This document shows positions 11,301 through 63,041 of a DNA stretch of 64,000 nt, in pieces. The notes beneath the pieces are model-generated. The model saw only the letters and a list, made by a program, of their open reading frames with translations, ran no database searches and was not told the DNA's origin. The stretch comes from Chrysomallon squamiferum (lineage: Eukaryota; Mollusca; Gastropoda; Neomphalida; Peltospiridae): NCBI GenBank assembly GCA_012295275.1, contig CM022678.1, positions 108,586 to 172,585 on the forward strand, given 5' to 3'. Position 1 is the stretch's first letter; each line of letters begins with the position of its first letter. Both the position numbers and the translations under genes were made by a program.

Positions 11301-11500
11301 NNNNNNNNNNNNNNNNNNNNNNNNNNNNNNNNNNNNNNNNNNNNNNNNNNNNNNNNNNNNNNNNNNNNNNNNNNNNNNNNNNNNNNNNNNNNNNNNNNNN
11401 NNNNNNNNNNNNNNNNNNNNNNNNNNNNNNNNNNNNNNNNNNNNNNNNNNNNNNNNNNNNNNNNNNNNNNNNNNNNNNNNNNNNNNNNNNNNNNNNNNNN
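11301..11500. other. Assembly gap (200 N)
   Basis: Exactly 200 undefined bases, a conventional fixed-size gap. True distance and content are unknown. Confidence 0.99.
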
Positions 11501-26350: not shown

Positions 26351-26939
26351 CACTTTTGTATGTTTCTTACAATGACTTATACTCTTATTTATATGAACAA
26401 ATATATTTATATCTAAAACATTAATTCTTCATCATCATCATCTTCTTCTTCTTGTTCTTCTTCTTCTTCTTCTTCTTATTATTATTATTATAATTACGGT
26501 TGTTGTTTTTATTGATGTGGTTGACACTTCTGTATTTTAACACATTAATTTCCTTTAACTTTTTTTTATCAAATATAATACTGCATCATTTGTAATCCAA
26601 TACAATAAAAAGAAAAAAGAAAAGAAAAAAGAAAGAAAAATAGACCAAATTTTTATATATATATATAAGTGAAACAGATAAATAAGTTATAATAAAGAAA
26701 TAAAGAAAGAAAGAAAGAAATAAAATAAAATAAAACTAAACATTATTACCACAACGATGAGTAAAAGTCACACCTGTGTTTAGATCACTCTGACTCCTAA
26801 TATCTACATATAAAAAAGTGTCCGATATTTTATTATTCACCATTACATTGCATTTTTCATTATTATTTTTATTATTAGCCCTAAGAATTGTTATAGTTCT
26901 GAGTCCGAACAATTTCTTTTTGTCCTTCTCTCCATTCCA

Positions 26940-26985
<46 letters not shown>

Positions 26986-27001
26986 TGTTTATAATGAAAA
27001 C
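26350..27001. other. AT-rich, microsatellites, no gene
   Basis: (TTC)n/(ATT)n near 26430-26490, (ATATAT) near 26657, (ATT)n at 26941-26984. May include the promoter of the adjoining BTB gene, but no motif is convincing. Confidence 0.4.
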
Positions 27002-28502
27002 ATGGCCACATCAGCTGCAGTTTCAAGTTGGCAGACAGGTAAAAAACTAACGGAATGTATTGAACACATTTTTCGTACGAGAACAGACAGCGACGTCAGA
27101 TTTGTTGTTGGACAAGATGAAACAATGGTTGAAGCACATCGGTTCATCCTCATGATACAAAGCGAAGTTTTCCACAAAATGATAACGTGAGAACTTCGCG
27201 AACAAAATAGCATCAAGTTGCCTGATGTGCAGGCAAATATTTGTACAGAGTTTTTTAAAGTATCTTAACAAATACAAACACAGGCACACGCGCAGCGACA
27301 CAGGAACAAACACATATAGGAAGCGAGATATACATACCAACACGAACATTGATAACAATACAGTTTTTGTTAGTAATCTAATTATTTTCTAATTAATTAA
27401 TCTCCCATAATTATTTCTCGTTATAGTTTTACTTCACATTCTATTACATATATCTTTACACGGATGACGTCGTCCTAACAGGCCACAACGTCACCGGTCT
27501 GCTGTATCTATCGAGGAAGTACATCGTCACGACACTTGAAGAACTGTGTGTACACTATTTGGAATCGTTGCTGTCGTCACAGAATGCGTGCGTCGTGCAG
27601 GAACAAGCTCACCTGTTTGATGAACATGATCTAAGAAGAAAACTCTGGACTTCATTTTGGCAAATGGCGACGAAGTTCTGAAGTCGGATGAAGTCACCGA
27701 TCTTTGTCACGAATGTCTGGTTGAGATCGTACGATCAGACGAACTGACAGCAGACGAGAAAAATGTTTTCGAAGCCGCTGTGAAGTGGGCTGACAGCGCG
27801 TGCACGAAGCAAGGAGAAGAGACGAATGGAGAGAACATGCGCGAAGTACTGGGGGAGGCCGTGAAGCACGTGCGTTATCCATTACTCGATCAGAAGTATT
27901 TTGTAAAACACGTGACACACACTAACAGACTCAGTGACACAGAAGGATTCAAGATTTGGAGACACTGGGTGAGCAGTGATGAAGATGTTTCACCTTTTAA
28001 CTCAAACAAGAGAACTTTAATGATGAAAACACAGAGTACAATAAACCGGTTTCGTAAAATGCGTTACGGCTGGTTCTTTTCTGGTAAATCTCATGAAGCC
28101 ATTACTTTCTCTGTCAACAAAAACGCTTTACTTCGCGGATTTCAGTTGTACAGTCACAGTGAACCACGCAACTACGACGTCAGCGCCTTCGTCACTGACA
28201 GAAGAACAGACGAAATACTTCACGGGTCTACGCTGACACAGAAATATAAAGACGTCGTGTCTGACGTGTATGACGTCGTGTTAAGACGTCCAGTGAAGAT
28301 TACTAAAAACACTGAGTACAGCTTGTTTTTTAATATTAAGGGAGACTACTCATGGTTTGGAGATTTTGGTAAATCCGAAATTGTTGTAGACTCTTTTGTT
28401 TGTAGATTTTCTGATTCAAAGAAATCTAAACACAGTGACAGAGAAGTTAGTCTTACACGTGTGTCATATGGACAGATACATGCTTTGTTATTTTTAGTGT
28501 GA
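27002..28502 (+). pseudogene. BTB-BACK-PHR protein (BTBD1/2/3/6 type) with two lesions
   Basis: This family acts as cullin-3 ubiquitin-ligase adaptors. Exon 1 (27002-27259, donor AAA|GTATCT) encodes WQTGKKLTECIEHIF and SDVRFVVGQDE followed by EAHRFILMIQSEVFHKM, a BTB start. Codon 63 is TGA (27188-27190), where relatives have a residue before the next conserved stretch, and reading continues ELREQNSIKLPDV. Exon 2 (from 27427) reads YTDDVVLTGHNVTGLLYLSR, then NACVVQEQAHLFDE; near 27646 one base is missing, and the frame shifts into the intact 281-codon stretch ending at 28502. That part holds the BACK domain (VFEAAVKWADSAC; VRYPLLDQKYF) and the PHR domain (ITFSVNKNALLRGFQLY; DYSWFGDFGKSEIV). 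Two lesions in an otherwise clean gene could mean a recent pseudogene or assembly errors. The exon 1/2 junction adds several unexpected residues. Confidence 0.8.
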
Positions 28503-29555: not shown

Positions 29556-32500
29556 GATACTGAACAATTCTAGAAGTAACTGAGTGTAATGGTGTACTGA
29601 GATCACTGACAACACTGAACAATACTAGAAGTAAACGAGTGTACTGGTATATTGAGATAACTGACAATACTGAACAAATCTAGAAGTAAGTGAGTGTAAT
29701 GGTGTACTCAGATCACTGAAAATACTGAACAATTCTAGAAGTAAATGAGTGTAATGGTTGACTGAGAGCACTGACAATACTCAACAATTCTACAAGAAAA
29801 TGAGTGTAATGGTTGACTGACAGCACTGACAATACTCAACAATTCTACAAGAAAATGAGTGTAATGGTGTACTCAGATCACAGACAATACTCAACAATTC
29901 TACAAGAAAATGAGTGTAATGGTGTACTGAGACCACTGGCAATACTGAAACATTCTAGAAGTAAATAAGTATAATGGAGTTCTGACATGACAGACAATAC
30001 TGAAACAATTCCACAAGTAAATGAGTGTAATGGTGTACTGAGATCACTAACAATACTGAAAAATTCTAGAAGTAAATGAGTGTAATGGTGTTTTGAGAAC
30101 ACTGACAATTCTAAACAATTATAGAAGTAAATGAGTGTAATGGTGTACTGAGATCACTGACAATACTGAAAAATTATACAAGTAAATGACTGTAATGGTG
30201 AAATGAGACCACACACAATACTGAGCACTTCTAGAAGTAAATGAGTGTAATGCTCTACTCAGATCACTGACAATATTGAACAATTCTAGAAGAAAATGAG
30301 TGTAATGGTGCACTGAGATCACTGACAACACTGAACAGTTCAGAAGTAAGTGAGTGTAACGGTGTACTGAGATCACTGACAATACTAAAACATTCTCGAA
30401 GTAAAAGAGTGTAGTGGTGTTCTGACATGACAGTCAATACTGAAACATTCCAGAAGTAAATGAGTCTAATGGTGTACTGAGATCACTAACAATACGGAAC
30501 AATTCTAGAAGTAAATGAGTGTAATGGTGTATTGAGATCACTGACAACACTGAACAATTCTAGAAGTAAAAGAGTTTCATGGTCTACTGAGATCATTAAA
30601 AAAAGTGAACAATTCTAGAAGTAAATGAGTGTACTGGTGTAATGAGATCACTGCCATACCGAACAATTCTAGAAGTAAATGAGTGTACTCGTGTACTGAG
30701 ATAACTGACAATACTGAACAATTCTAGAAATTAATGGGCATACTGAGATCACTGACACCACTGAACAAATTTAGAAGTAAGTGAGTGTAATGGTGTACTG
30801 AGATCAGTGAAAATACTGAACAATTCTAGCAGTAAATGAGAGTGATGATGTACTAATATCGCACACAATATTGAACAATTCTAGAAGTAAATGAGTGGAC
30901 TGGTGTACTTATATCACTGATAATACTGAACAATTCTAGAAGTAAATGAGTGTAATGGTGTATTGAGATCACTCACAATACTGACAAATTCTACAAGTAA
31001 ATGAATGTAATGGCGTTCTGAGATCATACACAATACTGAGCACTTCTAGAAGTGAATGAGTGTAATGGTGTACTGAGATCACTGACAATATTGAACAGTT
31101 CTAGTAGTAAATGAGTGTAATGGTGTTTTTAAACCACTGACAATTCAGAACAATTATAGAAGTAAATAAGTGTAATGGTGTAATGAGATCACTGCCATAC
31201 TGAACAATTCTAGAAGTAAATAAGTACTGGTGTACTCAGGAAACTGACAAAACTAAATAATTCTAGAAGTAAATGTGTGTAATTGTATACTGATATCACA
31301 GAGAATACTAAACAATTCTAGAAGTAAATGATGGTAATGGTGTACTGTGATGAGTGACAATACTGAACAACTCTAGAAGTAAATGAGTTTGATGGTCTAC
31401 TGAGATCATTCACAAAACTGAACAATTCTAGAAGTAAATGAGTATAATGATGTAATGAGATCACTGCCGTACTGAACAATTCTAGAAGTAAATCAGTGTA
31501 CTCGTTTATTAAGATAACTGACAATACTGAACAATCCTAGAAGTTAATGAGTGTACTGAGATCACTGACACCACTGAACAAATGTAGAAGTAAATGATTA
31601 TAATGGTGTACTGATATCACTGATAATAATGAACAATTCTACAAGTAAATGAGTCTAATGGTGTACTGAGATCACTAAAAATATTGAACAATTCTAGAAG
31701 TAAATGAGTGTACTAGTGTTTTTAAACCACTGACAATTCTGAAAAATTATAGAAGTAAATGATTGTAATGGTGTATTGAGATCACTGACAACAGTGAAAA
31801 ATTCTACAAGTAAATGAACGTAATGGTGTACTGAGATCACACACAATACTGAGCACTTCTAGAAGTAAATGAGTGTAATGATGTACTGAGATCACTGAGA
31901 ACTCTGAACAATTCTACAAGTAAATGATTGTAATTATGTACTGCTATCGCAGACAATATTGAACACAATTCTAGAAGTAAATGAGAGTACTGGTGTACTT
32001 ATATCACTGATAATACTGAGCACTTCTAGAAGTAAATGAGTGTAATGATGTACTGCTATCGCAGACAATACTGAACAATTCTAGAAGTAAATGAGTGTAA
32101 TGGTGCACTAATATCACTGACAACACTGAAAAATTCTAGAAGTAAATGAGTATAATGGTGTACTGAGATCACTAAGAACACTGAACAATTCTAGAAGTAA
32201 ATGAGGGTAATGGTGTTTTGAGACCACTAAGAACACTGAACAATTCTAGAAGTAAATGAGTATAATGGTGTTTTGAGACCACTAAGAACACTGAACAATT
32301 CTAGAAGTAAATGAGTATAACGGTTGACGGAGATCACTGACGATAGTGAACAATTCAAGAAGTAAATGAGTGTAATGGTACACTGATATCACAGTCAATA
32401 CTAAACAATTCTAGAAGTAAATGATTCTAATGGTGCACTGTGATGAGTGACAATACTGAACAACTCTAAAAGTAAATGTGTGTAATGGTTGACTGATAGC

Positions 32501-35500
32501 TCTGCAGTAGTGAACAATTCTAGAAGTAAATGAGTGTAATGATCTCGCAGACAATACTGAACAATTCTAGAAGTAAATGAGAGTAATGGTGTACTTAGAC
32601 CATTGACAATACTGAACAATTCTAGAAGTAAATGAGTGTAATGGTGTACTGAGATCACACACAATACTGAGCACTTCTAGAAGTATATGAGTGTAATGGT
32701 GTACTCAGATCACTGACAATACTAAACAATTCCAGAAGTAAATGAGTGTAATGGTGTATTGAGATCACTGACAATACTGAACAATTCTAGAAGTAAATGA
32801 GTGTAATGGTGTATTGAGATCACTGACAATACTGAAAAACTACAAGTAAATGAGTGTAATGGTTGACTAAGAGGACTGCATTACTGAACAATTCTAGAAG
32901 TAAATGAATGTAATGGTGTATTGAGATCACTGACAATACTGAACAACTCTACAAGTAAATGAGTGTAATGGTTGACTAAGAGGACTGCATTACTGAACAA
33001 TTCTAGAAGTAAATGAGTGTAATGGTGTACTGAGATCACTGCCATACTGAAACATTGTAGAAGTAAATAAGTACTGGTGTACTGAGATCACTGACACCAC
33101 TGAACATATCTAGAAGTAACTGAGTGTAATGGTGTTCTGAGATAATTGAGAATACTGAACAATTCTAGAAGTAAATGAGTGTAATGGTGTACTAAGATCA
33201 CTCACAATGTTGAACAATTCTAGAAGTAAATGAGTGTACTGGTGTACTGAGATCACTGACATAGTGAACAATTCTAGAAGTAAATGAGTGTGATGGTGTA
33301 CTGATATCACAGACAATAATAAACAATTCTAGAAGTAAATGAGTGTAATGGAGTACTCAGATCACTGACACCACTGAACAAATCTAGAAGTAACTGAGTG
33401 TAATGGTGTACTGAGATCACTGACATAGTGAACAATTCTAGAAGTAAATGAGTGTACTGGTGTACTGAGATCACTGACACCACTGAACAAATCTAGAAGT
33501 AACTGAGTGTAATGGTGTACTGAGAAAAGTGAGAATACTGAACAATTCTACAAGTAAATGAGTGTAATGGTGTACTGAGACCACACACAATACTGAGCAC
33601 TTCTAGAAGTAAATGAGTGTAATGATGTACTGAGATCACTGACAATACCGAACAATTCTAGAAGTAAATGAGTGTAATGGTGTTTTTAAACCACTGACAA
33701 TTCTGAACAATTACAGAAGTAAATGAGTGTAATGGTGTATTGAGATCACTGACAATACTGAAACATTCTACAAGTAAATGAGTGTGATGGTGTACTGAGA
33801 CCACACACAATACTGAGCACTTCTAGAAGTGAATGAGAGTAATGCTGTACTCAGATCATTGACAATATTGAAAAGTTCTAGAAGTAAATGAGTGTAATAG
33901 TGTTTTTAAACCACTGACAATTCTGAACAATTACAGAAGTAAATGTGTGTAATGGTGTATTGAGATCACTGACAATACTGAAACATTCTACAAGTAAATG
34001 AGTGTGATGGTGTACTGAGACCACACACAATACTGAGCACTTCTAGAAGTAAATGAGTGTAATGGTGTACTGATATCACAGACAATAATAAACAATTCTA
34101 GAAGTAAATGAGTGTAATGGAGTACTCAGATCACTGACAATATTGAACAGTTCTAGAAGTAAATGAGTGTAATGGTGTACTGAGATCATACAGAATACTG
34201 ATAACTTCTAGAAGTGAATAAGTGTAATGGTGTACTGAGATCAATGACAATATTGAACAGTTCTAGAAGTAAATGAGTGTAATGGTGTACTGATATCACA
34301 GACAATAATAAAAAATTCTAGAAGTAAATGAGTGTAATGGAGTACTCAGATCACTGACAATACTGTTCAATTCTACAAGACAATGAGTGTAATGGCTGAC
34401 TGAGAGGACAGACAACATTGAACAATTCTAAAAGACAATTAGTGTAATGGTGTACAGAGACCACTGACAATACTGAAACATTCTAGAAGTATATGAGTGC
34501 AATGGTGTTCTGACATGACAGACAATACTGAACAATTCCACAAGTAAATGAGTGTAATGGGTACTGAGAACAGTAACAATTCTAGAAGTAAATCATTGTA
34601 ATGGTCCTTTTAAACCACTGACAATTCTGAACTATTATAGAAGTAAATGAATGTAATGCTGTAGTGAGATCACTGACAATACTGAACAATTCTAGAAGAA
34701 AATGAGTGTAATGGTGTACTGAGATCAGTGACAATACTGTTCAGTTCTACAAGAAAATGATGCAATGGTTGACTGAGAGCAGAGACAACACTGAACAATT
34801 CTAAAAGAAAATTAGTGTAATATTCCACAGAGATCACTGACAATACTGAACAATTCTAGAAGTAAATGAGTGTAATGGTGTTTTGAGACAAATGAGAATA
34901 CTCAACAATATTAGAAGTGAATGACTGTAATGGTTGACTCAGATCAGTGACAATACTGAACAAATCAAGAAGTAAATGAGTGTAATGGTGTACTGGGATC
35001 ACTGACAAAACTGAACAATTCTAGAAGTAAATGAATGTACTGGTGTACTGATATCAGTGATAATACTGAACAATACAAGAAGTAAACGAGTGTAATGGTG
35101 TACTGAGATCACTGACAATACTGAAAAATTCTACAAGTAAATGAGTGTAATGGTGTACTGAGACCACACACAATACTGAGTACTTCTAGAAGTAAATGAG
35201 TGTAATGGTGTTCTGACATCACTGACAATACTGAACAATTCTAGAAGTAACTGAGTGTAATGATATCCTCAGATCACTGAAAACTCTGAACAATTCTACA
35301 AGTAAATGAGTGTAATGATGTACTGCTATCGCAGAGAATATTGAACAATTCTAGAAGTAAATGAGTGTACTGCTGTACTGATGTCACTGATAATACTGAA
35401 CAATTCTATAAGTAAATGAGTGTAATGGTGTTTTTAAACCACTGACAAATCTGAACAATTATAGAAGTAAATGATTCTAATGGTGTATTGAGATCACTAA

Positions 35501-36908
35501 CAATACTGAAACATTCTACAAGTAAATTGATGTAATGGTGTACTGAGACCACACACAATACTGAGCACTTCTAGAAGTAAATTAGTGTAATGGTGTACTG
35601 AGATCACTGACAATACTGAACAATTCTACAATTATATGAGTGTAATGTTGAACTGAGATCACACACAATACTGAAACATTCTAGAAGTGAATGAGTGTAA
35701 TAGTGTACTCATATCACTGAGAAAACAACAATTCTAGAAGTAAATGAGTGTAGTGGTGTACTGAGATCACTGACATACTAGAAGTAAATAAGTACTGGTC
35801 TACTCAGGTCCCTGACAACACTAAACAATTCTAAAAGGAAATGAGTGTAATGGTTGACTGAGAGTACTGCAATACTGAACAATTCTAGAAGCAAATGAGT
35901 GGACTGGTGTACTGAGATCAGTCACAATACTGAGCAATTCTAGAAGTAAATGAGTCTAATGGTGTACTCAGATCACTGACAATAGTGAACAATTCTAGAA
36001 GTAAATGATTGTAATGATGTACTGATATCGCAGACAATATTGAACAATTCTAGAAGTAAATGAGTGTACTGGTGTACTGATATCACTGATAATACTCAAC
36101 AATTCTACAAGTAAACGAGTGAAATAGTGTGCTGAGATCACTAACAATACTCAAGAATTCTAGAAGTAAATGAGCGTAACGGTGTTTTTGAACCACTAAC
36201 AATTCTGAACAATTATAGAAGTAAATGAGTTTAATGGTGTATTGAGATCACTGATAATACTGAACAATACTAGAAGTAAATGAGTTTAATGGTGTTTTGA
36301 GATCACTGCAACACTGAAAAATTCTAGAAGTAAATGAGTTTGATGGTCTACTGAGATCATTCACAAAACTGAACAATTCTACAAATAAATGAGTGTAATG
36401 GTTTACTGAGATCACTGACAATACCGAACAATTCTAGAAGCAAATGAGTGTAATGGTGCACTCAGATCACTGACAATACTGATCAATTCTACAAGTAAAT
36501 GAGTGTAATGGTGTACTGAGATCAGTGAGAATACTGAACAAATCTAGAAGTAAATGAGTGTAATGCTGTACTGAGATCACTGAGAATGCTGAACAATTCT
36601 ACAAGTAAAAGAGTGTAATGGTTGACTGATATCAGTGAGAATACTGAAGAAATCTAGAAGTAAATGAGTATTCTAGTGTACTGATATCTGTGTGAATACT
36701 GAATAAATCTAGAAGTAAATGAGTGTAATGGTGTACTGAGATCAGTAAAATACTGAACAATTCTACAAGTAAATGAGTGTAATGGTGTACTGATATCACT
36801 AAAATACTGAATAATTCTAGAAGCAAATGAGTGTAATGGTGTAGAGATCACTGACAACACTGAACAGTTAAGAATTAAATGAGTGTATTGGTATAATGAG
36901 ATCACTAA
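29555..36908. repeat. 55-bp satellite array, ~130 copies
   Basis: Consensus built from tgaacaattctagaagtaaa, tgagtgtaatggtgtactga and gatcactgacaatac, 55 bp, over about 7.35 kb. Most units keep TTCTAGAA; a common variant has TTCTACAA. Variant classes (tttttaaaccactgacaatt; gagaccacacacaatactgagcacttctag) recur in the same order about every 220 bp, for example at 33680-33830 and 33900-34050, showing higher-order duplication of four-unit blocks. Because 55 is one more than a multiple of three, minus-strand open frames with HHYTHLLLELFS-like repeats arise by chance; I see no splice or start evidence for them. Confidence 0.95.
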
Positions 36909-37095
36909 GCAATGTCTAAAGATATATGGAACTTCAGAAACTCAGGTCACTAAAGACACCGAAGAGGTGGATTGAAGAACTGACTGGAAAGACATAATAT
37001 GTGACCCAGGACAACAAAACATGTCTTAAGTTGCATTTTGTTCACTGCTTTTTAACTAAATAAATAAAACAAGAAGTAAAATATAAAGGAGAAAC

Positions 37096-46877: not shown

Positions 46878-46999
46878 TTATTTAGTATTAAAACACAAAT
46901 ACCAGAATATATATATACACAGAGACATTTATACACACTTACATACACACATATACGTACGTACATATATAGATACACCCACAGACATACATGTGAGAT

Positions 47000-48300
47000 A
47001 CAGACACAGATACGTGATTATGTGTATTTATAAATTACTAATATTTCAGATATAGATACACACACAGACATACACAGATACGTGATTATGTGTATTTATA
47101 AATTACTAATATTTCAGATAGAGATACACACACAGACATACAAGTGAAATACATACACAGATACGTGGCTACGTGTATTTATAAATTAGTAATGTTTCAT
47201 TTATAGATACACACACAGACATACAAGTGACATACAAAGATACGTGATTACGTGTATTTATAAATTACTAACGTTTCATATTTAGATACACACACAGACA
47301 TACAAGTGACATACAGACACAGATACGTGATTACGTGTATTTATAAATTACTAATGTTTCATATTTAGATACAAACACACAGACATACAAGTGACATACA
47401 GACGCATATACGTGATTACGTGTATTTATAAATTACTAACGTTTCATATATAGATACAAACACACAGACATACAAGTGACATACATACACAGATACGTGA
47501 TTACGTGTATTTGTAAATTACTAACGTTTCATATATAGATACACACACAGACATACAAGTGCCGTACAGACACACGTATACAACAGACACAGATACATGA
47601 TTACGTGTATTTATAAATTAGTAATGTTTCATATATAGAAACACACACAGACATACAAATGCCGTACAGACACAGATACGTGAATACGTGTATTTATTAA
47701 TTACTAACGTTTCATATATAGATACAACCACACAGACATACACGTAACATACATACAGATACGTGATTACGTGTATTTATAAATTACTAATGTTTCATAT
47801 ATAGATACAAACACACAGACATACACGTGACATACAGACACAGATACGTGATTACGTGTATTTATAAATTACTAATGTTTCATATATAGATACAAACACA
47901 CAGACATACACGTGACATACAGAGATACGTGATTACGTGTATTTATAAATCACTAATGTTTCATATATAGATACAAACACACAGACATACACGTGACATA
48001 GAGATACGTGATTACGTGTATTTATAAATCACTAATGTTTCATATATAGATACAAACACACAGACATACAAGTGACATACATACAAAGATACGTGATTAC
48101 GTGTATTTATAAATTACTAATGTTTCATATATAGATACAAACACACAGACAGACATACAAGTGACATACATACACAGATACGTGATTACGTGTATTTATA
48201 AATTACTAATGTTTCATATATAGATACACACAGACAGACATACAAGTGACATACATACACAGATACGTGGATACGTGTATTTACGTGGCTACGTGTATTT
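47000..48300. repeat. 84-bp tandem array, ~16 copies
   Basis: Units contain gatacgtgattacgtgtatt, tataaattactaatgtttca, tatatagatacaaacacaca and gacatacaagtgacatac. Two ACGTG motifs per unit are mostly kept. The array ends abruptly at a zinc-finger sequence. Confidence 0.93.
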
Positions 48301-49530: not shown

Positions 49531-52500
49531 TTAGAAAGCCGTGTTCCAGACGAAGGGCGGGGCTGGCAGATCACTGTCCCGTGCGTAAACTGAGCACTGT
49601 TTGAACTCACAGGGACTCGTTCTCCACGCGTACCTCACCCCGACGACATTTTGGTGACAAGCGGAAGTAGACAGGGTGACTGACGACGTGTCGCCGTGCG
49701 TGATTGGTGCAGGCAGCCACGTGTCGTGAGCTGCGCAGTAAGAGACATGCGCAGAGCAGCAGATCTGTGAAACAGACGAACATTATTTTGAATTTGAATG
49801 TTTTTCTTTTTCGTTTGTCTGCACTTTTGTATGAAATATGATAATATAAATGTATTTTCTTAAATTCCATTGCTGTTGTATGAATGAAATGAGCACTGAA
49901 AAAGAGAATACGTTTGAAACGAAGAATAACAAAGTAAGATAAATTTAAACTAGCTGAACTGAGAAATATCTATCTATCTATCTATCTATATATTTCACTA
50001 AAAGCAACTAAAAAGGCACAAAATAGATGAATGAACGAATGAACGAACAAATAATAAACAAATTTCAGAAATATACGTCAGAAACAGATGACAAAGAAAC
50101 CAATAAACATTAACTAACTAACTAACTAACTAACTAAATAAATAAATAAATAAATAAATCAGAACTTTACGTACATCGAAACCGCGGTGATAGTTTCTGA
50201 CTTCAATTGGAGTCCTGCCGTGGTCGTATTCGACTGTGAGATGATGCTGATGTTTGTCTAACCTGAATGACGTCGGAAACGGGCCCTGGAACTCGATGTT
50301 TTTCCTACCATACGCCACAGCCAGAGCACTGAGTACCAGTCTATGAGCAACATCCTGTTTGTCACGTGGATGGATTCTGTGAGTGAGAAAATGAATGAAT
50401 GAATGAAGGAACGATCGAAGGACTGACTTGCAGGAAGCTGCTCTGTTATTTATTTGTAGGTTTGTTTATTTTCTGTCGTTGTTTATTACACCATTTGTTA
50501 TTTGTCAGTATGTAATTTTTAGTAGTAGTAGCAGTTGTGTTGGTATAGTAGTAGTAGTACTAGTAGGGGTAGCTCTGATTGTAGTATAGTGTAACATGCG
50601 TACTAGTCATCACAGTTGCATTAAAGTAATAGTATTCGTTTTAGTAGTAGTAGCGGTGTGAATAGTTTTACCATTATTACTTCTATTACTACCACCCCAC
50701 TACTTCTGCTATTACTCCTACTACTACTACATCTATTATTATTATTCCTACCACTACGACTACAACAACAACAATTACGACTACTACTAACACTACTATT
50801 ACTACTACTCTACTACTACTACTAATAGTAATAGTAATAATCAGTATTATAATCGGTTTGTTTTATTTTATTTTTAATATAATTGTAATTTAAACTTACG
50901 TTCCACGAGGTGAAGAGAAATCTGGAAGATCCATAGCAACCGCCATGAAAGTGTTCGGCATCTTGTGATTTGGCACGTGGCCAACTTTCGCCGTCTGCGA
51001 CCATCTCAAGGGAGGGAACCCACCTACACTGTCTAAGTTGTGAGCATTGGCAGCGAGCTGAAATATAATAAAACAATAACAACAGTAACAACAACAACAA
51101 TAAATATTACTGTGATTAACATCATCATCATCATCATCGTCGTCATCAACATCACTGTTGTTTAAGTTGTCAGCATTGGCAGCGAGCTGCAATATAATAA
51201 AACAATAACAACAGTAACAACAACAACAACAACAATAAATATTACTGTGATTAACATCATTATCATCATCGTCATCAACATCACTGTTGTCGTAACTAAA
51301 CTCACATCGGAAGGAAAATAAATGTTTGACGGTTAATGATAAATCTCTCTCGGGCAACTGGTTAGATCGGGAGAAAGCCCTATTTGGGTGGTCAGGAGAT
51401 TTGATCTAGCAACCCACACGACACATTATTTGAACTACAGAGATCCAGCTAAGATCACAGATAAAACAACTAACGAGTTGATGTTAATTTTCACCTGAAC
51501 AAAGCCGAAGGGGAAGTCGGGTCGAGTCTCGCCGAGTGAGGCGTGGTGAAACTTGTTTCTCCAGTCTTTGATCATAGCAGGAAACTGACACGAATACGCG
51601 TCGGGGTGACCAGCATTGCTCTCCCCTGAATAGAAACACGTCATTCATTTCTGTCTTTATACACTGTGTATACTTGATATAGAAACAAATAAAACATCTT
51701 TACGTCTGTTAGTTTCCGACCAGAATTTGTAACTGGATTAAAAAAAAAAACAACAACAAAAAACTGTAAATATTCGATAATTTTATCAGTTATCAAAAGG
51801 AAGGATAATGATCTGCTTCGCAATATATGCAACAGTAATCTCCCGTTATAACTTTTTACAATAATCATAGTCAGTCTTTTATTATTCTTGTTCTTCAAAA
51901 ACAGTATAATTATCTGCATATACACTCACACACTCACACACACACACACAGACATGCAGACACACATACAAATATATCGGGCGTATGAGTAGTCACACAC
52001 ACATACACAGAGATATATATTTACACATACAAACATGTACACACACAAACACACATTCACATACATACATACAAAAATATATAGATACTTTACACACACG
52101 CGCGCGCACACACAAAAGCATACACATGGACATATGCATACAACAAAACAGAAAAGAAAAGAACAACGCTGACATAGCACAGCGACAGTAACATCAACGA
52201 CTACAACAACGAAAAGGAAAATGGATTACCTTGGTACCAGATAGCACCGTATATAGTAGTAGGTAAAATTGGGTTGATCATCGCGTTCCAAAGTACACTG
52301 GGTGCACTAGGAGTTCTGAATTAAGTAAATAGCAGAACGTATTATTGAAAATAGTATTTAAAAAATCCTGCCGACTGTTTGTGTAAATATAAATTTAGAC
52401 TGTTTGTGTAAATATAAATTTAGACTGTTTGTGTAAATGTAACGTAGACTGTTTGTGTAAATATAAATTTAGACTGTTTGTGTAAATATAAATTTAGACT

Positions 52501-55500
52501 GTTTGTGTAAATATAAATGTAGACTGTTTGTGTAAATGTAAATTTAGACTTAGATTCTGTTCTCATGCTGCGTCTTTTGGAAAAATTCCGGAAACCAGTT
52601 TTTGTTAAAACAACAAGGAAAGAAAAACAAAACAAAACAAAAACAAAACACACAAAAAAAAAACGAGATCAGAACATCTTGTTTTGGTTATTTTTTGACA
52701 GCACACCTATTCGATTGCGAACACAAATTTTATTTTTCTTCTCTAACAGTTATGTCTATTAATAAATAAATAAATAAAAAGAAAGACAGAAAAGAAAAAC
52801 GACTGACACAAACAGATTAATTAAATAACGAAAAAGTATCGTTTAGTTTTACCTTTTTGTTCTTGTTCTGCAAGCTGCCAGCGCGTCAGGGGAAGACCAC
52901 GCCTCTATGGGAGTCCCGCCCCAAGCAGATTCGATGAGTCCGATCGGTCGATTGATGTGAGAATATAAATATTTGCCAAAAAGCCAGCAAACAGCAGAAT
53001 AGAACTGTAATCTATCTGAACAGATGATTTCGAAATAAAACAAGAAGAAGAAGAAAACGAAAAATAGTAACAACAACAACAGATCTCTCTCGCTCGAAGT
53101 ATTTTGTTTTTCTTTGTAGCCCTTTTATTTCTTTCTGTGTCTTTCTGTCTCTGTGTCTTTCTTTCTCTCTTTCTTTGTTATTACGTATTTCTGTGTGTGT
53201 GTTTCATATGGATGTTCTAGATTGCATACATCTATTGTTCTTGTGTGTTTGTCTCTCTTTCTCTCTTTCTCTGCCTGTGTGTTTGGTGTGTGTGTCTGTA
53301 CATGTGTTTGTGTGACAGCGAGAGATAGAGAGGGCTAGAGAGTGAGAACGAGTGAAAGATATTTCTATGTGTGTGTGACTGTTGCATTGCGTAAGTACGT
53401 GTGCCTATATATGTAGATGTGTGTGTATTTGTGTATATGCATGTGTATGTTTTTGTATGTTTATGTGTATGTTTTTCTATGTTTATGTATGTTTATGTGT
53501 GAGTACATGAACGTGTATGTTTACGTGTATGTTTTTGTATGTTTATGTATGTGTATGTGTGAGTACATGAACTGTATGTTTACGTGTATGTTTATGAATG
53601 TGTAATGTGTATGTGTGTTTATATGAATGTGTAATGTTTATGTGTGTTTATATGAATGTATGTGCTTGTGCATCTTTCTGGACAGTTTCCAGTTTCTCTG
53701 AATGTGTACAAGAGTGAGTATGTTTGTGTTACGTACGTGCTGAAGGTAGGGTCCAGCGTCTGAAGCTGTGAAGATCTTCAAACTGAGTGGGGGACTGTAT
53801 CGTGTCTGCTTGAAACACTCTGATGTTCTGATAATGATCTGCAGACGACAGTTCGTAGCTTGCGTTAAAACCTGCAGTTAAAACAGTGTTATGTTAATGA
53901 AGTATAAGTCTGATGTGTTTCTGAGCGTGTAAATGTATGTATGTATGTGTGTGTCTATGTCTTTCTGTTTGACTGTCTTTCCTTGTGTCTGTATGTGAGT
54001 GTGTGTCTGTGTGTCTCTTTCTGTGTGTCTGTATATGTCTGTGAGTTTGTTTCTGTAAGTGTATGTGTTTCTGTGTGTTTCTATGTCTGTGTATGTGTAT
54101 CTCTCTCTGTGTGTAAAACTGATATTTTAAACAGTAATCAGTAAATTGTTTACAAAATGATCTAAACCTGCAGTTATGCTTTGGCCAGTAAATACGTAAA
54201 TAACCAGTAATTGCAGAAACTGCAAGAAGGAAACTAGTAATAATAACAACAACAACTAATATTAACTTACGTTTTTCAAGGTAAAACCCATATTACTTTG
54301 TCCAGAACACAGACAAACATCAATATAAACTGGAAGAAGGAAACTAGTAATAATAACAACAACAACTAATATTAACTTACGTTTTTCAAGGTAAAACCAA
54401 TATTACTTTGTCCAGAACACAGACAAACATCAATATAAACTGGAAGAAGGAAACTAGTAATAATAACAATAACAACAAGAACTAATATTAACTTACGTTT
54501 TTCAAGGTAAAACCCATATTACTTTGTCCAGAACACAGACAAACATCAATATAAACTGCAAGAAGGAAACTAGTAATAATAACAACAACAAGAACTAATA
54601 TTAACTTACGTTTTTCAAGGTAAAACCCATATTACTTTGTCCAGAACACAGCCAAACATCAATATAAACTGTAAGAAGGAAACTAGTAATAATAACAACA
54701 AGAACTAATATTAACTTACGTTTTTCAAGGTAAAACCCATATTACTTTGTCCAGAACACAGCCAAACATCAATATAAACTGTAAGAAGGAAACTAGTAAT
54801 ACTAATAACAACAACAAGAACTAATATTAACTTACGTTTTTAACACGTTTTTCAAAAAAACCCATATTACTTTGTCCACAACACAGCCAAACATCAATAT
54901 AAACAGCAAGAAGGAAACTAGTAATAATAACAACAAGAACTAATATTAACTTACGTTTTTCAAGGTAAAACCCATATTACTTTGTCCAGAACACAGCCAA
55001 ACATCAATATAAACTGCAAGAAGGAAACTAGTAATAATAACAACAACTAATATTAACTTACGTTTTTCAAAGGTAAAACCCATATTACTTTGTCCAGAAC
55101 ACAGCCAAACATCAATATAAACTGCAAGAAGGAAAGTAGTAATAATAACAATAACAACAACAACTAATATTAACTTACGTTTTTCAAGGTAAAACCCATA
55201 TTACTTTGTCCAGAACACAGCCAAACATCAATATAAACTGCAAACATCAGAAAACTGCAAAGAAACTAGTAATAATAACAACAACTAATATTAACTTACG
55301 TTTTTCAAGGTAAAATCCATATTACTTTGTCCAGAACACAGCCAAACATCAATATAAACTGCAAGAAGGAAACTAGTAATAATAGCAACAAGAACTAATA
55401 TTAACTTACATTCTTCAAGGTAAAACCTATATTACTTTGTCCAGAACACAGCCAAACATCAATATAAACTGCAAGAAGGAAACTAGTAATAATAACAACA

Positions 55501-58500
55501 ACAAGAACTAATATTAACTTAAGTTTTTCAAGGTAAAACCCATATTACTTTGTCCAGAACACAGCCAAACATCAATATAAACTGTAAGAAGGAAACTAGT
55601 AATAATAATAACAAGAACTAATATTAACATACGTTTTTCAAGGTAAAACCCATATTACTTTGTCCAGAACACAGCCAAACATCAATATAAACTGTAAGAA
55701 GGAAACTAGTAATAATAACAACAAGAACTAATATTAACTTACGTTTTTCAAGGTAAAACCCATATTACTTTGTCCAGAACACAGCCAAACATCAATATAA
55801 ACTGCAAGAAGGAAACTAGTAATAATAACAACAACAACAACTAATATTAACTTACGTTTTTCAAGGTAAAACCCATATTACTTTGTCCAGAACACAGCCA
55901 AAGATCAATATAAACTGCAAGAAGGAAAGTAGTAATAATAACAATAACAACAACAACTAATATTAACTTACGTTTTTCAAGGTAAAACCCATATTACTTT
56001 GTCCAGAACACAGCCAAACATCAATATAAACTGTAAGAAGGAAACTAGTAATAATAACAACAAGAACTAATATTAACTTACGTTTTTCAAGGTAAAACCC
56101 ATATTACTTTGTCCAGAACACAGCCAAACATCAATATAAACTGCAAGAAGGAAACTAGTAATAATAACAACAACTAATATTAACTTACGTTTTTCAAAGT
56201 TAAAACCCATATTTTTGTCAGAACACAGTAAAAACTAGTAATATTACTTTGTCCAGAACACAGCCAAACATCAATATAAACTGCAAGAAAACATCAAACT
56301 AGTAATAATAACAACAACTAATATTAACTTACGTTTTTCAAGGTAAAACCCATATTACTTTGTCCAGAACACAGCCAAACATCAATATAAACTGCAAGAA
56401 GGAAACTAGTAATAATAACAACAAGAACTAATATTAACTTACGTTTTTCAAGGTAAAACCCATATTACTTTGTCCAGAACACAGCCAAACATCAATATAA
56501 ACTGCAAGAAGGAAACTAGTAATAATAACAACAACAACAACAACTAACTAATATTAACTTACGTTTTCAAGGTAAAACCCATATTACTTTGTCCAGAACA
56601 CAGCCAAAAACATCAATATAAACTGTAAGAAGGAAACTAGTAATAATAACAACAAGAACTAAATAATTAACTTACGTTTTTCAAGGTAAAACCCATATTA
56701 GAACACAGCCAAACATCAATATAAACGTTTTTCAAGGTAAACCATATTACTTTGTCCAGAACACAGCCAAACATCAATATAAACTGCAAGAAGGAAACTA
56801 GTAATAATAACAACAACAACTAATATTAACTTACGTTTTTCAAAGTAAAACCCATATTACTTTGTCCAGAACACAGCCAAACATCAATATAAACTGCAAG
56901 AAGGAAACTAGTAATAATAACAACAACAAGAACTAATATTAACTTACGTTTTTCAAGGTAAAACCCATATTACTTTGTCCAGAACACAGCCAAACATCAA
57001 TATAAACTGCAAGAAGGAAACTAGTAATAATAACAACAACAACTAATATTAACTTACGTTTTTCAAGGTAAAACCCATATTACTTTGTCCAGAACACAGC
57101 CAAACATCAATATAAACTGCAAGAAGGAAACTAGTAATAATAACAATAACAACAACAACTAATATTAACTTACGTTTTTTTCAAGGTAAAACCCATATTA
57201 CTTTGTCCAGAACACAGCCAAACATCAATATAAACTGCAGAAGGAAAACTAGTAATAATAACAACAAGAACTAATATTAACTTACGTTTTTCAAGGTAAA
57301 ACCCATATTACTTTGTCCAGAACACAGCCAAACATCAATATAAACTGCAAGAAGGAAACTAGTAATAATAACAACAAGAACTAATATTAACTTACGTTTT
57401 TCAAGGTAAAACCCATATTACTTTGTCCAGAACACAGCCAAACATCAATATAAACTGCAAGAAGGAAACTAGTAATAATAACAACAACAACTAATATTAA
57501 CTTACGTTTTTCAAGGTAAAACCCATATTACTTTGTCCAGAACACAGCCAAACATCAATATAAACTGCAAGAAGGAAACTAGTAATAATAACAACAACAA
57601 GAACTAATATTAACTTACGTTTTTCAAGGTAAAACCCATATTACTTTGTCCAGAACACAGCCAAACATCAATATAAACTGCAAGAAGGAAACTAGTAATA
57701 ATAACAACAACAACAACTAATATTAACTTACGTTTTTCAAGGTAAAACCCATATTACTTTGTCCAGAACACAGCCAAACATCAATATAAACTGTAAGAAG
57801 GAAACTAGTAATAATAATAACAAGAACTAATATTAACATACGTTTTTCAAGGTAAAACCCATATTACTTTGTCCAGAACACAGCCAAACATCAATATAAA
57901 CTGTAAGAAACTAGTAACTAGTAATAATAACAACAAGAACTAATATTAACATACGTTTTTCAAGGTAAAACCCATATTACTTTGTCCAGAACACAGCCAA
58001 ACATCAATATAAACTGTAAGAAGGAAACTAGTAATAATAACAACAAGAACTAATATTAACTTACGTTTTTCAAGGTAAAACCCATATTACTTTGTCCAGA
58101 ACACAGCCAAACATCAATATAAACTGATCAATATAAACTAACTTACGTTTTTCAAGGTAAAACCCATATTACTTTGTCCAGAACACAGCCAAACATCAAT
58201 ATAAACTGCAAGAAGGAAACTAGTAATAATAACAACAACTAATATTAACTTACGTTTTTCAAGGTAAAATCCATATTACTTTGTCCAGAACACAGCCAAA
58301 CATCAATATAAACTGCAAGAAGGAAACTAGTAATAACAACAAAGAACTAATATTAACTTACGTTTTTTTTCAAGGTAAAACCCATATTACTTTGTCCAGA
58401 ACACAGCCAAACATCAATATAAACTGTAAGAAGGAAACTAGTAATAATAACAACAAGAACTAATATTAACTTACGTTTTTCAAGGTAAAACCCATATTAC

Positions 58501-61500
58501 TTTGTCCAGAACACAGCCAAACATCAATATAAACTGCAAGAAGGAAAGTAGTAATAATAACAATAACAACAACAACTAATATTAACTTACGTTTTTCAAG
58601 GTAAAACCCATATTACTTTGTCCAGAACACAGCCAAACATCAATATAAACTGTAAGAAGGAAACTAGTAATAATAACAACAAGAACTAATATTAACTTAC
58701 GTTTTTCAAGGTAAAACCCATATTACTTTGTCCAGAACACAGCCAAACATCAATATAAACTGCAAGAAGGAAACTAGTAATAATAACAACAACTAATATT
58801 AACTTACGTTTTTCAAAGTAAAACCCATATTACTTTGTCCAGAACACAGCCAAACATCAATATAAACTGCAAGAAGGAAACTAGTAATAATAACAACAAC
58901 TAATATTAACTTACGTTTTTCAAGGTAAAACCCATATTACTTTGTCCAGAACACAGCCAAACATCAATATAAACTGCAAGAAGGAAACTAGTAATAATAA
59001 CAACAAGAACTAATATTAACTTACATTCTTCAAGGTAAAACCTATATTACTTTGTCCAGAACACAGCCAAACATCAATATAAACTGCAAGAAGGAAACTA
59101 GTAATAATAATAACAACAACAACTAATATTAACTTAACTTAAGTTTTTCAAGGTAAAACCCATATTACTTTGTCCAGAACACAGCCAAACATCAATATAA
59201 ACTGTAAGAAGCGAAACTAAACTAGTAATAATAACAACAAGAACTAATATTAACTTAACTTTTTTTTGCAAGGTAAAACCCATATTACTTTGTCCAGAAC
59301 ACAGCCAAAACATCAATAATAAAACTGCAAGAAGGAAACTAGTAATAATAACAACAAAAATACTAATATTAACTTACGTTTTTCAAAGTAAAACCCATAT
59401 TACTTTGTCCAGAACACAGCCAAACATCAATATAAACTGCAAGAAGGAAACTAGTAATAATAACAACAACAAGAACTAATATTAACTTACGTTTTTCAAG
59501 GTAAAACCCATATTACTTTGTCCAGAACACAGCCAAACATCAATATAAACTGCAAGAAGGAAACTAGTAATAATAACAACAACAACAACTAATATTAACT
59601 TACGTTTTTCAAGGTAAAACCCATATTACTTTGTCCAGAACACAGCCAAACATCAATATAAACTGCAAGAAGGAAACTAGTAATAATAACAACAACAACT
59701 AATATTAACTTACGTTTTTCAAGGTAAAACCCATATTACTTTGTCCAGAACACAGCCAAACATCAATATAAACTGCAAGAAGGAAACTAGTAATAATAAC
59801 AACAAGAACTAATATTAACTTACGTTTTTCAAGGTAAAACCCATATTACTTTGTCCAGAAACATCAATATAAACACAAAACATCAATATAAACTGCAAGA
59901 AGGAAACTAGTAATAATAACAAACTGCAACAAGAACTAATATTAACAACAACGTTTTAACAAGTTTTTCAAAACCCACCCATATTACTTTGTCCAGAACA
60001 CAGCCAAACATCAATATAAACTGCAAGAAGGAAACTAGTAATAATAACAACAACAAGAACTAATATTAACTTAAGTTTTTCAAGGTAAAACCCATATTAC
60101 TTTGTCCAGAACACAGCCAAACATCAATATAAACTGTAAGAAGGAAACTAGTAATAATAACAACAAGAACTAATATTAACTTACGTTTTTCAAGGTAAAA
60201 CCCATATTACTTTGTCCAGAACACAGCCAAACATCAATATAAACTGCAAGAAGGAAACTAGTAATAATAACAACAACTAATATTAATATTAACGTTTTTT
60301 TCAAGTAAAACCCATATTACTTTGTCCAGAACACAGCCAAACATCAATATAAACTGCAAGAAGGAAACTAGTAATAATAACAACAACAACTAATATTAAC
60401 TTACGTTTTTCAAGGTAAAACCCATATTACTTTGTCCAGAACACAGCCAAACATCAATATAAACTGCAAGAAGGAAACTAGTAATAATAACAACAAGAAC
60501 TAATATTAACTTACGTTTTTCAAGGTAAAACCCATATTACTTTGTCCAGAACACAGCCAAACATCAATATAAACTGCAAGAAGGAAACTAGTAATAATAA
60601 CAACAACAAGAACTAATATTAACTTACGTTTTTCAAGGTAAAACCCATATTACTTTGTCCAGAACACAGCCAAACATCAATATAAACTGTAAGAAGGAAA
60701 CTAGTAATAATAACAACAAGAACTAATATTAACTTACGTTTTTCAAGGTAAAACCCATATTACTTTGTCCAGAACACAGCCAAACATCAATATAAACTGC
60801 AAGAAGGAAACTAGTAATAATAACAACAACAACAACTAATATTAACTTACGTTTTTCAAAGTAAAACCCATATTACTTTGTCCAGAACACAGCCAAACAT
60901 CAATATAAACTGCAAGAAGGAAACTAGTAATAATAACAACAACAACAAGAACTAATATTAACTTACGTTTTTCAAGGTAAAACCCATATTACTTTGTCCA
61001 GAACACAGCCAAACATCAATATAAACTGCAAGAAGGAAACTAGTAATAATAACAACAACTAATATTAACTTACGTTTTTCAAAGTAAAACCCATATTACT
61101 TTGTCCAGAACACAGCCAAACATCAATATAAACTGCAAGAAGGAAACTAGTAATAATAACAACAACAACTACTAATATTAACTTACGTTTTTCAAAGTAA
61201 AACCCATATTACTTTGTCCAGAACACAGCCAAACATCAATATAAACTGCAAGAAGGAAACTAGTAATAATAACAACAACTAATATTAACTTACGTTTTTC
61301 AAGGTAAAATCCATATTACTTTGTCCAGAACACAGCCAAACATCAATATAAACTGCAAGAAGGAAACTAGTAATAATAGCAACAAGAACTAATATTAACT
61401 TACATTCTTCAAGGTAAAACCTATATTACTTTGTCCAGAACACAGCCAAACATCAATATAAACTGCAAGAAGGAAACTAGTAATAATAACAACAACAAGA

Positions 61501-63041
61501 ACTAATATTAACTTAAGTTTTTCAAGGTAAAACCCATATTACTTTGTCCAGAACACAGCCAAACATCAATATAAACTGTAAGAAGGAAACTAGTAATAAT
61601 AACAACAAGAACTAATATTAACATACGTTTTTCAAGGTAAAACCCATATTACTTTGTCCAGAACACAGCCAAACATCAATATAAACTGCAAGAAGGAAAC
61701 TAGTAATAATAACAACAACAACAACTAATATTAACTTACGTTTTTCAAGGTAAAACCCATATTACTTTGTCCAGAACACAGCCAAACATCAATATAAACT
61801 GCAAGAAGGAAACTAGTAATAATAACAACAACAACTAATATTAACTTACGTTTTTCAAGGTAAAACCCATATTACTTTGTCCAGAACACAGCCAAACATC
61901 AATATAAACTGCAAGAAGGAAACTAGTAATAATAACAACAACAACAACTAATATTAACTTACGTTTTTCAAGGTAAAACCCATATTACTTTGTCCAGAAC
62001 ACAGCCAAACATCAATATAAACTGCAAGAAGGAAACTAGTAATAATAACAACAACAAGAACTAATATTAACTTACGTTTTTCAAGGTAAAACCCATATTA
62101 CTTTGTCCAGAACACAGCCAAACATCAATATAAACTGTAAGAAGGAAACTAGTAATAATAAATAATAACAAGAACTAATATTAACTTACGTTTTTCAAGG
62201 TAAAACCCATATTACTTTGTCCAGAACACAGCCAAAGATCAATATAAACTGCAAGAAGGAAAGTAGTAATAATAACAATAACAACAACAACTAATATTAA
62301 CTTACGTTTTTCAAGGTAAAACCCATATTACTTTGTCCAGAACACAGCCAAACATCAATATAAACTGCAAGAAGGAAACTAGTAATAATAACAACAACAA
62401 GAACTAATATTAACTTACGTTTTTCAAGGTAAAACCCATATTACTTTGTCCAGAACACAGCCAAACATCAATATAAACTGTAAGAAGGAAACTAGTAATA
62501 ATAACAACAAGAACTAATATTAACTTACGTTTTTCAAGGTAAAACCCATATTACTTTGTCCAGAACACAGCCAAACATCGCCAAACAAAACGTCGTGGAT
62601 GGTTGTGTGTCCTTCGCTGGATTTAGCTGTGATGGTGAACGGACCATGCGCAGTGATGGCCGGAAGTTTGACTTTCCAGATTCCATGAGAAGCATGCGGG
62701 TCTTGAACGACGTTGGCAGTGACGTGGCCATGTCCGCTGACTGTCACAGTGACTGTGTCGCCGACGTTGTCCGCTGTCCCCCAGATGACAGCGCGCTGAG
62801 GACCACGCTGAAGGACCACGTGATTACCGTAATAAGACGCAAACTTTAGAGCGGCAAGAGATGCTAAAAAACATGGAGGTAAGACCTACTACTACTACTA
62901 CAACTACAACGACAGCTACTGCTACTACCACCACCACCACTACCACCACCACTACTACTGCCACTACCACCGCCACCACTACTACTACTACCACTACCAC
63001 CACCACTCCTACCACTACCACCACCACCACCACTACTACTA

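Follow-up and report, generated by a model that had tools for sequence, protein, structure and literature searches.

The SIAE gene and its second intron

The window, by which we mean the whole 64,000-nt stretch of Chrysomallon squamiferum DNA that was analysed, carries a sialate O-acetylesterase (SIAE) gene on its minus strand, with eight coding exons between 49531 and 62863. Exon numbering presumes an upstream exon 1, which is taken as given. Exon 2 (62529–62863) ends AAC/GTAAGT, where the slash marks the splice junction, and is 76% identical to the SIAE of Gigantopelta aegis (P0001) over residues 1–90. It is followed, in the gene model, by an intron 2 of 8,657 nt (53872–62528) and by exon 3 (53737–53871), whose acceptor reads CAG/GTTTTAACGC. 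Exons 4 (53015–52853), 5 (52315–52230), 6 (51625–51495), 7 (51057–50900), 8 (50376–50175) and 9 (49764–49531) are each open, bounded by GT–AG and, on our reading, consistent in phase. Together, the eight exons match all 462 residues of P0001 except 91–93, at the exon 2/3 junction, and the concatenated model is matched by Pfam SASA. The best full-length protein match, among the best 120 of 7,982 matches, is that of Gigantopelta aegis at 72%; among the 79 listed, the best shorter match reaches 70% over 89% of the query, and P0199 reaches 87% over 18% only.

Six of the seven exon junctions are GT–AG and in phase, the exception being the exon 2/3 junction. With exon 2 in phase 0 at its end, exon 3 starts GTTTTAACGC, as against GTTTTCAATGC in the paralog L012, and is one nucleotide short of the frame set by exon 2 (window position 53871; the junction context is GTTTTAAC in the window gene and GTTTTCAAT in L012). 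The base missing from the T-run at the start of exon 3 may have been lost in sequencing, or the gene may be truly frameshifted; loss of a T within such a run is a typical Nanopore error. Alternatively, a weaker-looking donor four bases further on, AACGTAA/GTTAAT, may be used, which would restore the frame and add one residue.

Array structure

Intron 2 begins with a tandem array that occupies its first 8,312 nt and makes up 96% of its length. Wrap-around alignment of window positions 54217–62579 resolves this region, in gene orientation, into the authentic 51-nt tail of exon 2 (62579–62529), 74 units (62528–54271) and an incomplete last unit of 54 nt (54270–54217), which runs on into ordinary intron. 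The array is also detected by Tandem Repeats Finder, as three blocks. Each unit consists of a GTAAGT donor, a (GTT)n stretch, a pyrimidine tract with an AG, the 8 nt TTTATATT and a copy of the exon-2 tail; the authentic tail, from which the coding part of the units derives, is identical to the array consensus. The authentic donor of exon 2 may be that at 62528 or that of the last copy, as the sequence is compatible with either.

Unit lengths of 110 bp (23 of 74) and 113 bp (19 of 74) are the commonest, and the consensus unit comprises 54 nt of intron-like and 59 nt of exon-like sequence. The exon-like block is not wholly exon, because 8 of its 59 nt are intron sequence; the remaining 51 nt are identical to the end of exon 2. 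This block is 59 nt long in 61 of the 74 units. The intron-like part measures 51 nt in 28 units, 54 nt in 19, 57 nt in 8 and 48 nt in 7, and lengths other than 51 nt mostly reflect differences in 3-bp steps within the (GTT)n stretch. The splice signals are widely kept: a GT donor is present in 69 units (GTAAGT in 62), an AG acceptor in 71 and both together in 67.

A previous sequence-only reading of the window had described about 75 tandem copies of roughly 110 bp in one intron, with both splice sites kept in nearly all of them, and the alignment bears this out, as it does that reading's account of the unit's donor, acceptor and encoded peptide. Its 59-nt exon-like block is right in length for most units, with 8 of the 59 nt being intron sequence, and its mini-introns of about 51 nt correspond to the modal value rather than to a uniform length.

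Outside the (GTT)n stretch, and with gapped columns skipped, mean pairwise identity between units is 98.0%, which excludes chance likeness. The units nonetheless fall into 42 distinct types. The last four units carry a mean of 1.75 substitutions outside the microsatellite, compared with 0.50–1.60 in the seven other groups of ten, and the last three share a change absent from all other units. The edge adjoining exon 2 is not divergent.

Origin of the repeat unit

We searched the 404.6-Mb assembly (22 sequences, with the window on contig C14) with a query of 241 bases covering the exon-2 border and the first unit. At least 78 matches were obtained, of which at least 73 lie at the array locus (the query itself included) and at least 5 lie elsewhere, each of them SIAE-like. 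Introner-type introns have copies dispersed over many genes, and with this concentration at one locus we rejected the array as a dispersed introner.

Two degenerate SIAE paralogs, L009 (C14:12.326 Mb; deletions and a GC donor) and L010 (C5:1.518 Mb; an in-frame stop), each have a single copy of exon 2 and of the first part of intron 2. A sequence made of the exon-2 end followed directly by the last partial unit of the array aligns unbroken to both paralogs, in pieces of 70–80% identity. Because the border is single in these two paralogs, the array is a tandem expansion of one exon-2/intron-2 segment, and the earlier proposal that an exon border had been amplified in tandem thus finds its unexpanded state. 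The duplicated segment, about 113 bp in all, takes in the last 51 nt of exon 2 and roughly the first 60 nt of intron 2. As we read the alignment, the initial duplication would have joined intron position ~+60 to a point 51 nt short of the exon-2 end, no more than about 1 base of sequence being shared.

The single-copy introns of L009 and L010 also contain a pyrimidine tract with an AG about 50 nt from their start, and the TTTATATT of the units is explained by the L009 intron sequence ...CAGTTTATATAATTGCTGG. A unit acceptor copied from exon 3 is ruled out by the presence of the same AG inside these introns, as is an origin of TTTATATT as filler DNA by its counterpart in L009. As the AG was already present in the single-copy intron, duplication made each copy an exon-like cassette between this AG and GTAAGT.

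Elsewhere in the window, part of a BTB/BACK/PHR-domain gene (Pfam; 26856–27756) recurs, 75–88% identical, at L010:8998–10000 beside the degenerate SIAE on C5, which suggests a larger segmental duplication.

Growth and age of the array

Local duplication predicts that neighbouring units should be more alike than distant ones. Repeated neighbour pairs of units are indeed more frequent than in shuffled arrays (10 versus 4.2, p = 0.029), yet no identical neighbouring units were seen where 2.2 were expected, and unit similarity is nearly flat with distance along the array, so that the history of growth is only loosely constrained. The heterozygosity of C. squamiferum is reported as 1.38% (PMC7142155); unit identity lies near this scale, and the present units are therefore young or well homogenised. 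Tandem repeats are reported to make up about 10.17% of this genome, compared with 2.89% in Pomacea (PMC7736800).

Splicing potential and constraint

The unit splice sites look strong beside the authentic ones. At positions −15 to −5, the pyrimidine fraction averages 0.91 at unit acceptors (70 units) and is 0.73 at the acceptor of exon 3, and most unit donors are the same as that of exon 2 (GTAAGT in 62 of 74). With acceptors richer in pyrimidines and donors like that of exon 2, the units would be expected to compete with the authentic sites. Inclusion of a unit would seldom leave the reading frame intact: read in phase after exon 2, a stop falls within the block in 68 of 74 units, and 66 of 74 blocks have a length of 3n+2, shifting the frame by two.

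Selection on these sites is not apparent from their variation. Outside the microsatellite, 4 of 9 splice-site columns (GTAAGT and CAG) are variable compared with 21 of 82 others (Fisher p = 0.25), a test of low power that is weakened further because Nanopore polishing could have smoothed the units. Counted by cells, variation amounts to 2.1% in the donor columns, 0.5% in the CAG and 0.8% in the exon-like part. The coding-derived 51 nt show 16 distinct changes, 5 synonymous and 11 non-synonymous (one of the latter a stop), with no synonymous bias (5 of 16 versus an expected fraction of 0.19, p = 0.21). The sequence thus lends no support to the role in splicing that had been proposed for the array; that splice-site bases vary as freely as the rest of the unit, at the low power stated, is half of what the sequence-only reading had named as its refutation.

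Products of unit splicing were sought in the genome and in public proteins. No copy of a spliced unit–unit junction was found genome-wide within 2 mismatches, and no intronless SIAE copy was seen, as all 31 SIAE protein matches in the genome are exon-sized. Four-residue words from the 17-residue unit-derived tail are absent from 199 public proteins, which carries little weight as none of these is recognisably from C. squamiferum; among the matches listed, no public protein was recognised as coming from this SIAE gene and so able to show its splicing.

Two further candidates were rejected. A classical recursive, or ratchet, splice site has an AG that directly abuts a GT; in the array consensus, the acceptor reads CAG/TTTATATT and the donor lies 59 nt further on. 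Folding is ordinary for the RNA of two units (z 0.46) and for the DNA of one (z 0.60), and Rfam at gathering score gives no match in window 53000–63000; on this ground, hairpins of RNA or of DNA were rejected as a cause or an outcome of the array.

Relation to known border repeats

The sequence-only reading knew of no described case of this form, but a precedent exists in lancelets. Under the name of mirages, tandem repeats across exon–intron borders, many of which keep AG/GT, have been described there in Adh3, the globins BflGb6 and BflGb9, troponin C and PGBD5 (PMC3087553, PMC3902484). In the accounts available to us, either border can be affected and regular splicing is reported to be undisturbed; BflGb6 occurs with 6 units in one haplotype and 3 in another (PMC3087553, PMC3902484). 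Mirages are further characterised by concerted homogenisation, less complete at the array edges, and by unstable length between alleles, and a somatic spread in unit number is reported for Adh3. The snail array shares with these cases, as they are described, a minisatellite-like duplication of a border, the retention of many splice signals and an intact authentic exon: its unit spans the border (51 nt from exon 2, the remaining 60 nt or so from intron 2), exon 2 is open beside the array and ends at 62529 with its donor in place, and AG and GT are kept together in most units. Also common to both, on the same accounts, is that either type of border is affected and that several genes of one genome are involved, in the snail the SIAE gene and a paralog (see below). 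The snail array differs in belonging to another phylum, in having 74 units as against the 6 and 3 of the BflGb6 haplotypes and, so far as the lancelet repeats are described, in that a cryptic intronic AG together with the exon donor makes each unit a full cassette. On its genome sequence, the array probably belongs with the mirages.

The gain of introns through tandem arrays, or through duplication of genomic DNA in tandem, is covered in PMC3443670 and is reportedly the subject of Zhuo (2007). As in the snail, the tandem copies presented there carry donor and acceptor signals; in the snail, a gained intron in actual use would be hypothetical. Internal tandem repeats at exon–intron boundaries of human segmentally duplicated genes, which are described as possibly forming novel introns (PMC2812944), also lie over borders, but these were found by comparison of transcripts and have, on average, some 4 units, each of 30 bp; the snail array is known from DNA. 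The intronic VNTR of ABCA7 resembles it as an intronic tandem repeat for which an effect on splicing is claimed, although the available text does not describe its unit as a copied exon border (PMC5954066). Earthworm metallothionein has intronic minisatellites and unused exon-4 duplications, not termed border repeats in the part of the source available (PMC12783039). No molluscan mirage was found in the titles and abstract openings searched, a set that most subscription papers fall outside, and the terms 'mirage' and 'minisatellite' are absent from the gastropod papers that were checked for them. Mirages, which in the literature searched were found named for lancelets alone, thus probably extend to a mollusc, with far more copies.

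Because single-copy paralogs exist for both the exon-2 duplication and the exon-7 duplication described below, the states before and after duplication can be read directly. Should splicing pass over these 70 or so strong decoys, the locus would offer a natural experiment on the choice of authentic sites; should the unit sites be used, it would show intron birth at an early stage.

Interpretation of the array

We consider it very probable that the array is a boundary-spanning minisatellite, or mirage, in SIAE and that it is young and neutral. A segment of about 113 bp from exon 2 and intron 2 is repeated head-to-tail inside the intron; its growth would have been by unequal exchange or replication slippage together with homogenisation, and recent. 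The array would persist in the intron without function and be spliced out in the joining of exons 2 and 3; we infer such normal removal by analogy with the lancelet mirages. A transcript mis-spliced into a unit would in most cases gain a stop codon and be degraded. The absence of excess constraint at the splice columns or in the coding-derived part favours neutrality, and the single-copy paralogs fit the neutral satellite born by slippage that the sequence-only reading had offered as its alternative. Neutrality is harder to square with the pyrimidine-richer unit acceptors and exon-2-like unit donors, and with the fact that the sole out-of-phase junction is the one that spans the array intron. 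The lack of identical neighbours and the flat similarity with distance count against local duplication as the mode of growth.

The strength of the unit sites is what a decoy or poison-exon sink would exploit, its 70-odd sites slowing or diverting exon 2–exon 3 splicing and its stop-bearing units allowing array length to tune SIAE output. The joint retention of GT and AG, pyrimidine tracts stronger than that of exon 3 and the prevalence of in-phase stops and 3n+2 lengths all suit such a sink. We nevertheless judge it very improbable, as the splice sites are no more constrained than the rest of the unit (on a weak test), the same AG occurs in degenerate single-copy paralogs and the lancelet mirages are, in the accounts available, reported not to disturb splicing (PMC3087553, PMC3902484). 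It is likewise very improbable, in our estimate, that the array forms a length-variable splicing rheostat, in which dozens of strong, mostly stop-carrying cassettes would work against a weaker authentic acceptor, array length in an individual or cell would set SIAE output and occasional capture of a cassette would seed introns. The units might also be real mini-exons, used for stepwise removal of the long intron or for circular RNAs, or as a step toward new introns. Most of them do hold the complete cassette AG–59 nt–GTAAGT; against this, AG and GT lie 59 nt apart, unlike in classical recursive sites, intron parts of 48–57 nt would be very short for a mollusc, a search of the genome at up to 2 mismatches turned up no copy of a unit–unit junction and the unit-tail words are absent from the 199 public proteins, none recognisably of this species, which says little. 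Intron birth from such repeats has been proposed for lancelet globins, on the accounts available (PMC3087553, PMC3902484); for the snail units, we regard a mini-exon role as extremely improbable.

Two other readings concern the gene and the assembly. This SIAE copy might be dying, with the array having spread under relaxed constraint, which would be compatible with a neutral mirage. The nucleotide that exon 3 lacks relative to the frame of exon 2 (GTTTTAAC versus GTTTTCAAT in L012) and the degenerate SIAE relatives in the genome point in this direction, but apart from this the eight coding exons are open and follow P0001 throughout save for residues 91–93, at the exon 2/3 junction, six of seven junctions are GT–AG and in phase, and a T lost from a T-run is the kind of error that Nanopore reads produce; we think a dying gene unlikely. 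The assembly is reported to have been built from Nanopore reads and polished with Nanopore and short reads (PMC7142155), and such polishing may have homogenised or miscounted units. With the odd indels in some units, this is the case for regarding the array or its copy number as an assembly artefact. That is very improbable given 42 distinct unit types among 74, a longest exact internal repeat of 347 bp with its copies far apart, which argues against any large duplicated block, and a sole run of N in the window (11301–11500) far from the array. A moderately wrong copy number is possible.

Other repeats in the SIAE loci and the window

A second border duplication, which resembles a mirage of two copies, lies at the acceptor of exon 7. 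The authentic copy (51030–51158, minus strand) contains the end of intron 6 and the first 28 nt of exon 7; the 129-bp copy upstream of it (51159–51287, minus strand) is 86% identical and keeps the AG. The paralog L047, 86–93% identical on its two sides, holds this border once. In the paralog L046, a 38-bp tandem duplication of 2.3 copies (L046:6394–6478) covers the apparent donor of exon 8.

We scanned the SIAE loci for repeats at such borders after dropping tblastn matches within the array; the edges tested are ends of tblastn matches rather than proven exon ends. The scan flagged 26 of 82 edges, 23 of them in L047 (28 edges tested), which was set aside because its 58-bp array sits inside an exon. 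Border-spanning repeats were then present at 3 of 54 edges, all within SIAE loci: 2 of 16 in the window, 1 of 14 in L046, 0 of 16 in L012 and 0 of 8 in L013, which has 4 matches only. The array in L047, an SIAE paralog piece at C14:11.904 Mb, comprises 14.8 copies (98% matches) of an internal 58-bp piece of exon 6 (L047:5126–5976), a length that is not a multiple of three.

Several other features were seen in passing. A 25-bp tandem repeat, GACTGTTTGTGTAAATATAAATTTA, occurs both in an intron of the SIAE gene (window 52373–52550) and at L047:6363–6435, in differing copy numbers. The 200-N gap of the window is probably a scaffold join. Self-comparison reveals a further tandem array, with units of roughly 83 bp, at 46964–48283, and many open frames on the minus strand of window 30000–37000 contain recurring stretches similar to LLLELFSIVSDLSTPLHSFTSR, apparently the translation of a long satellite.
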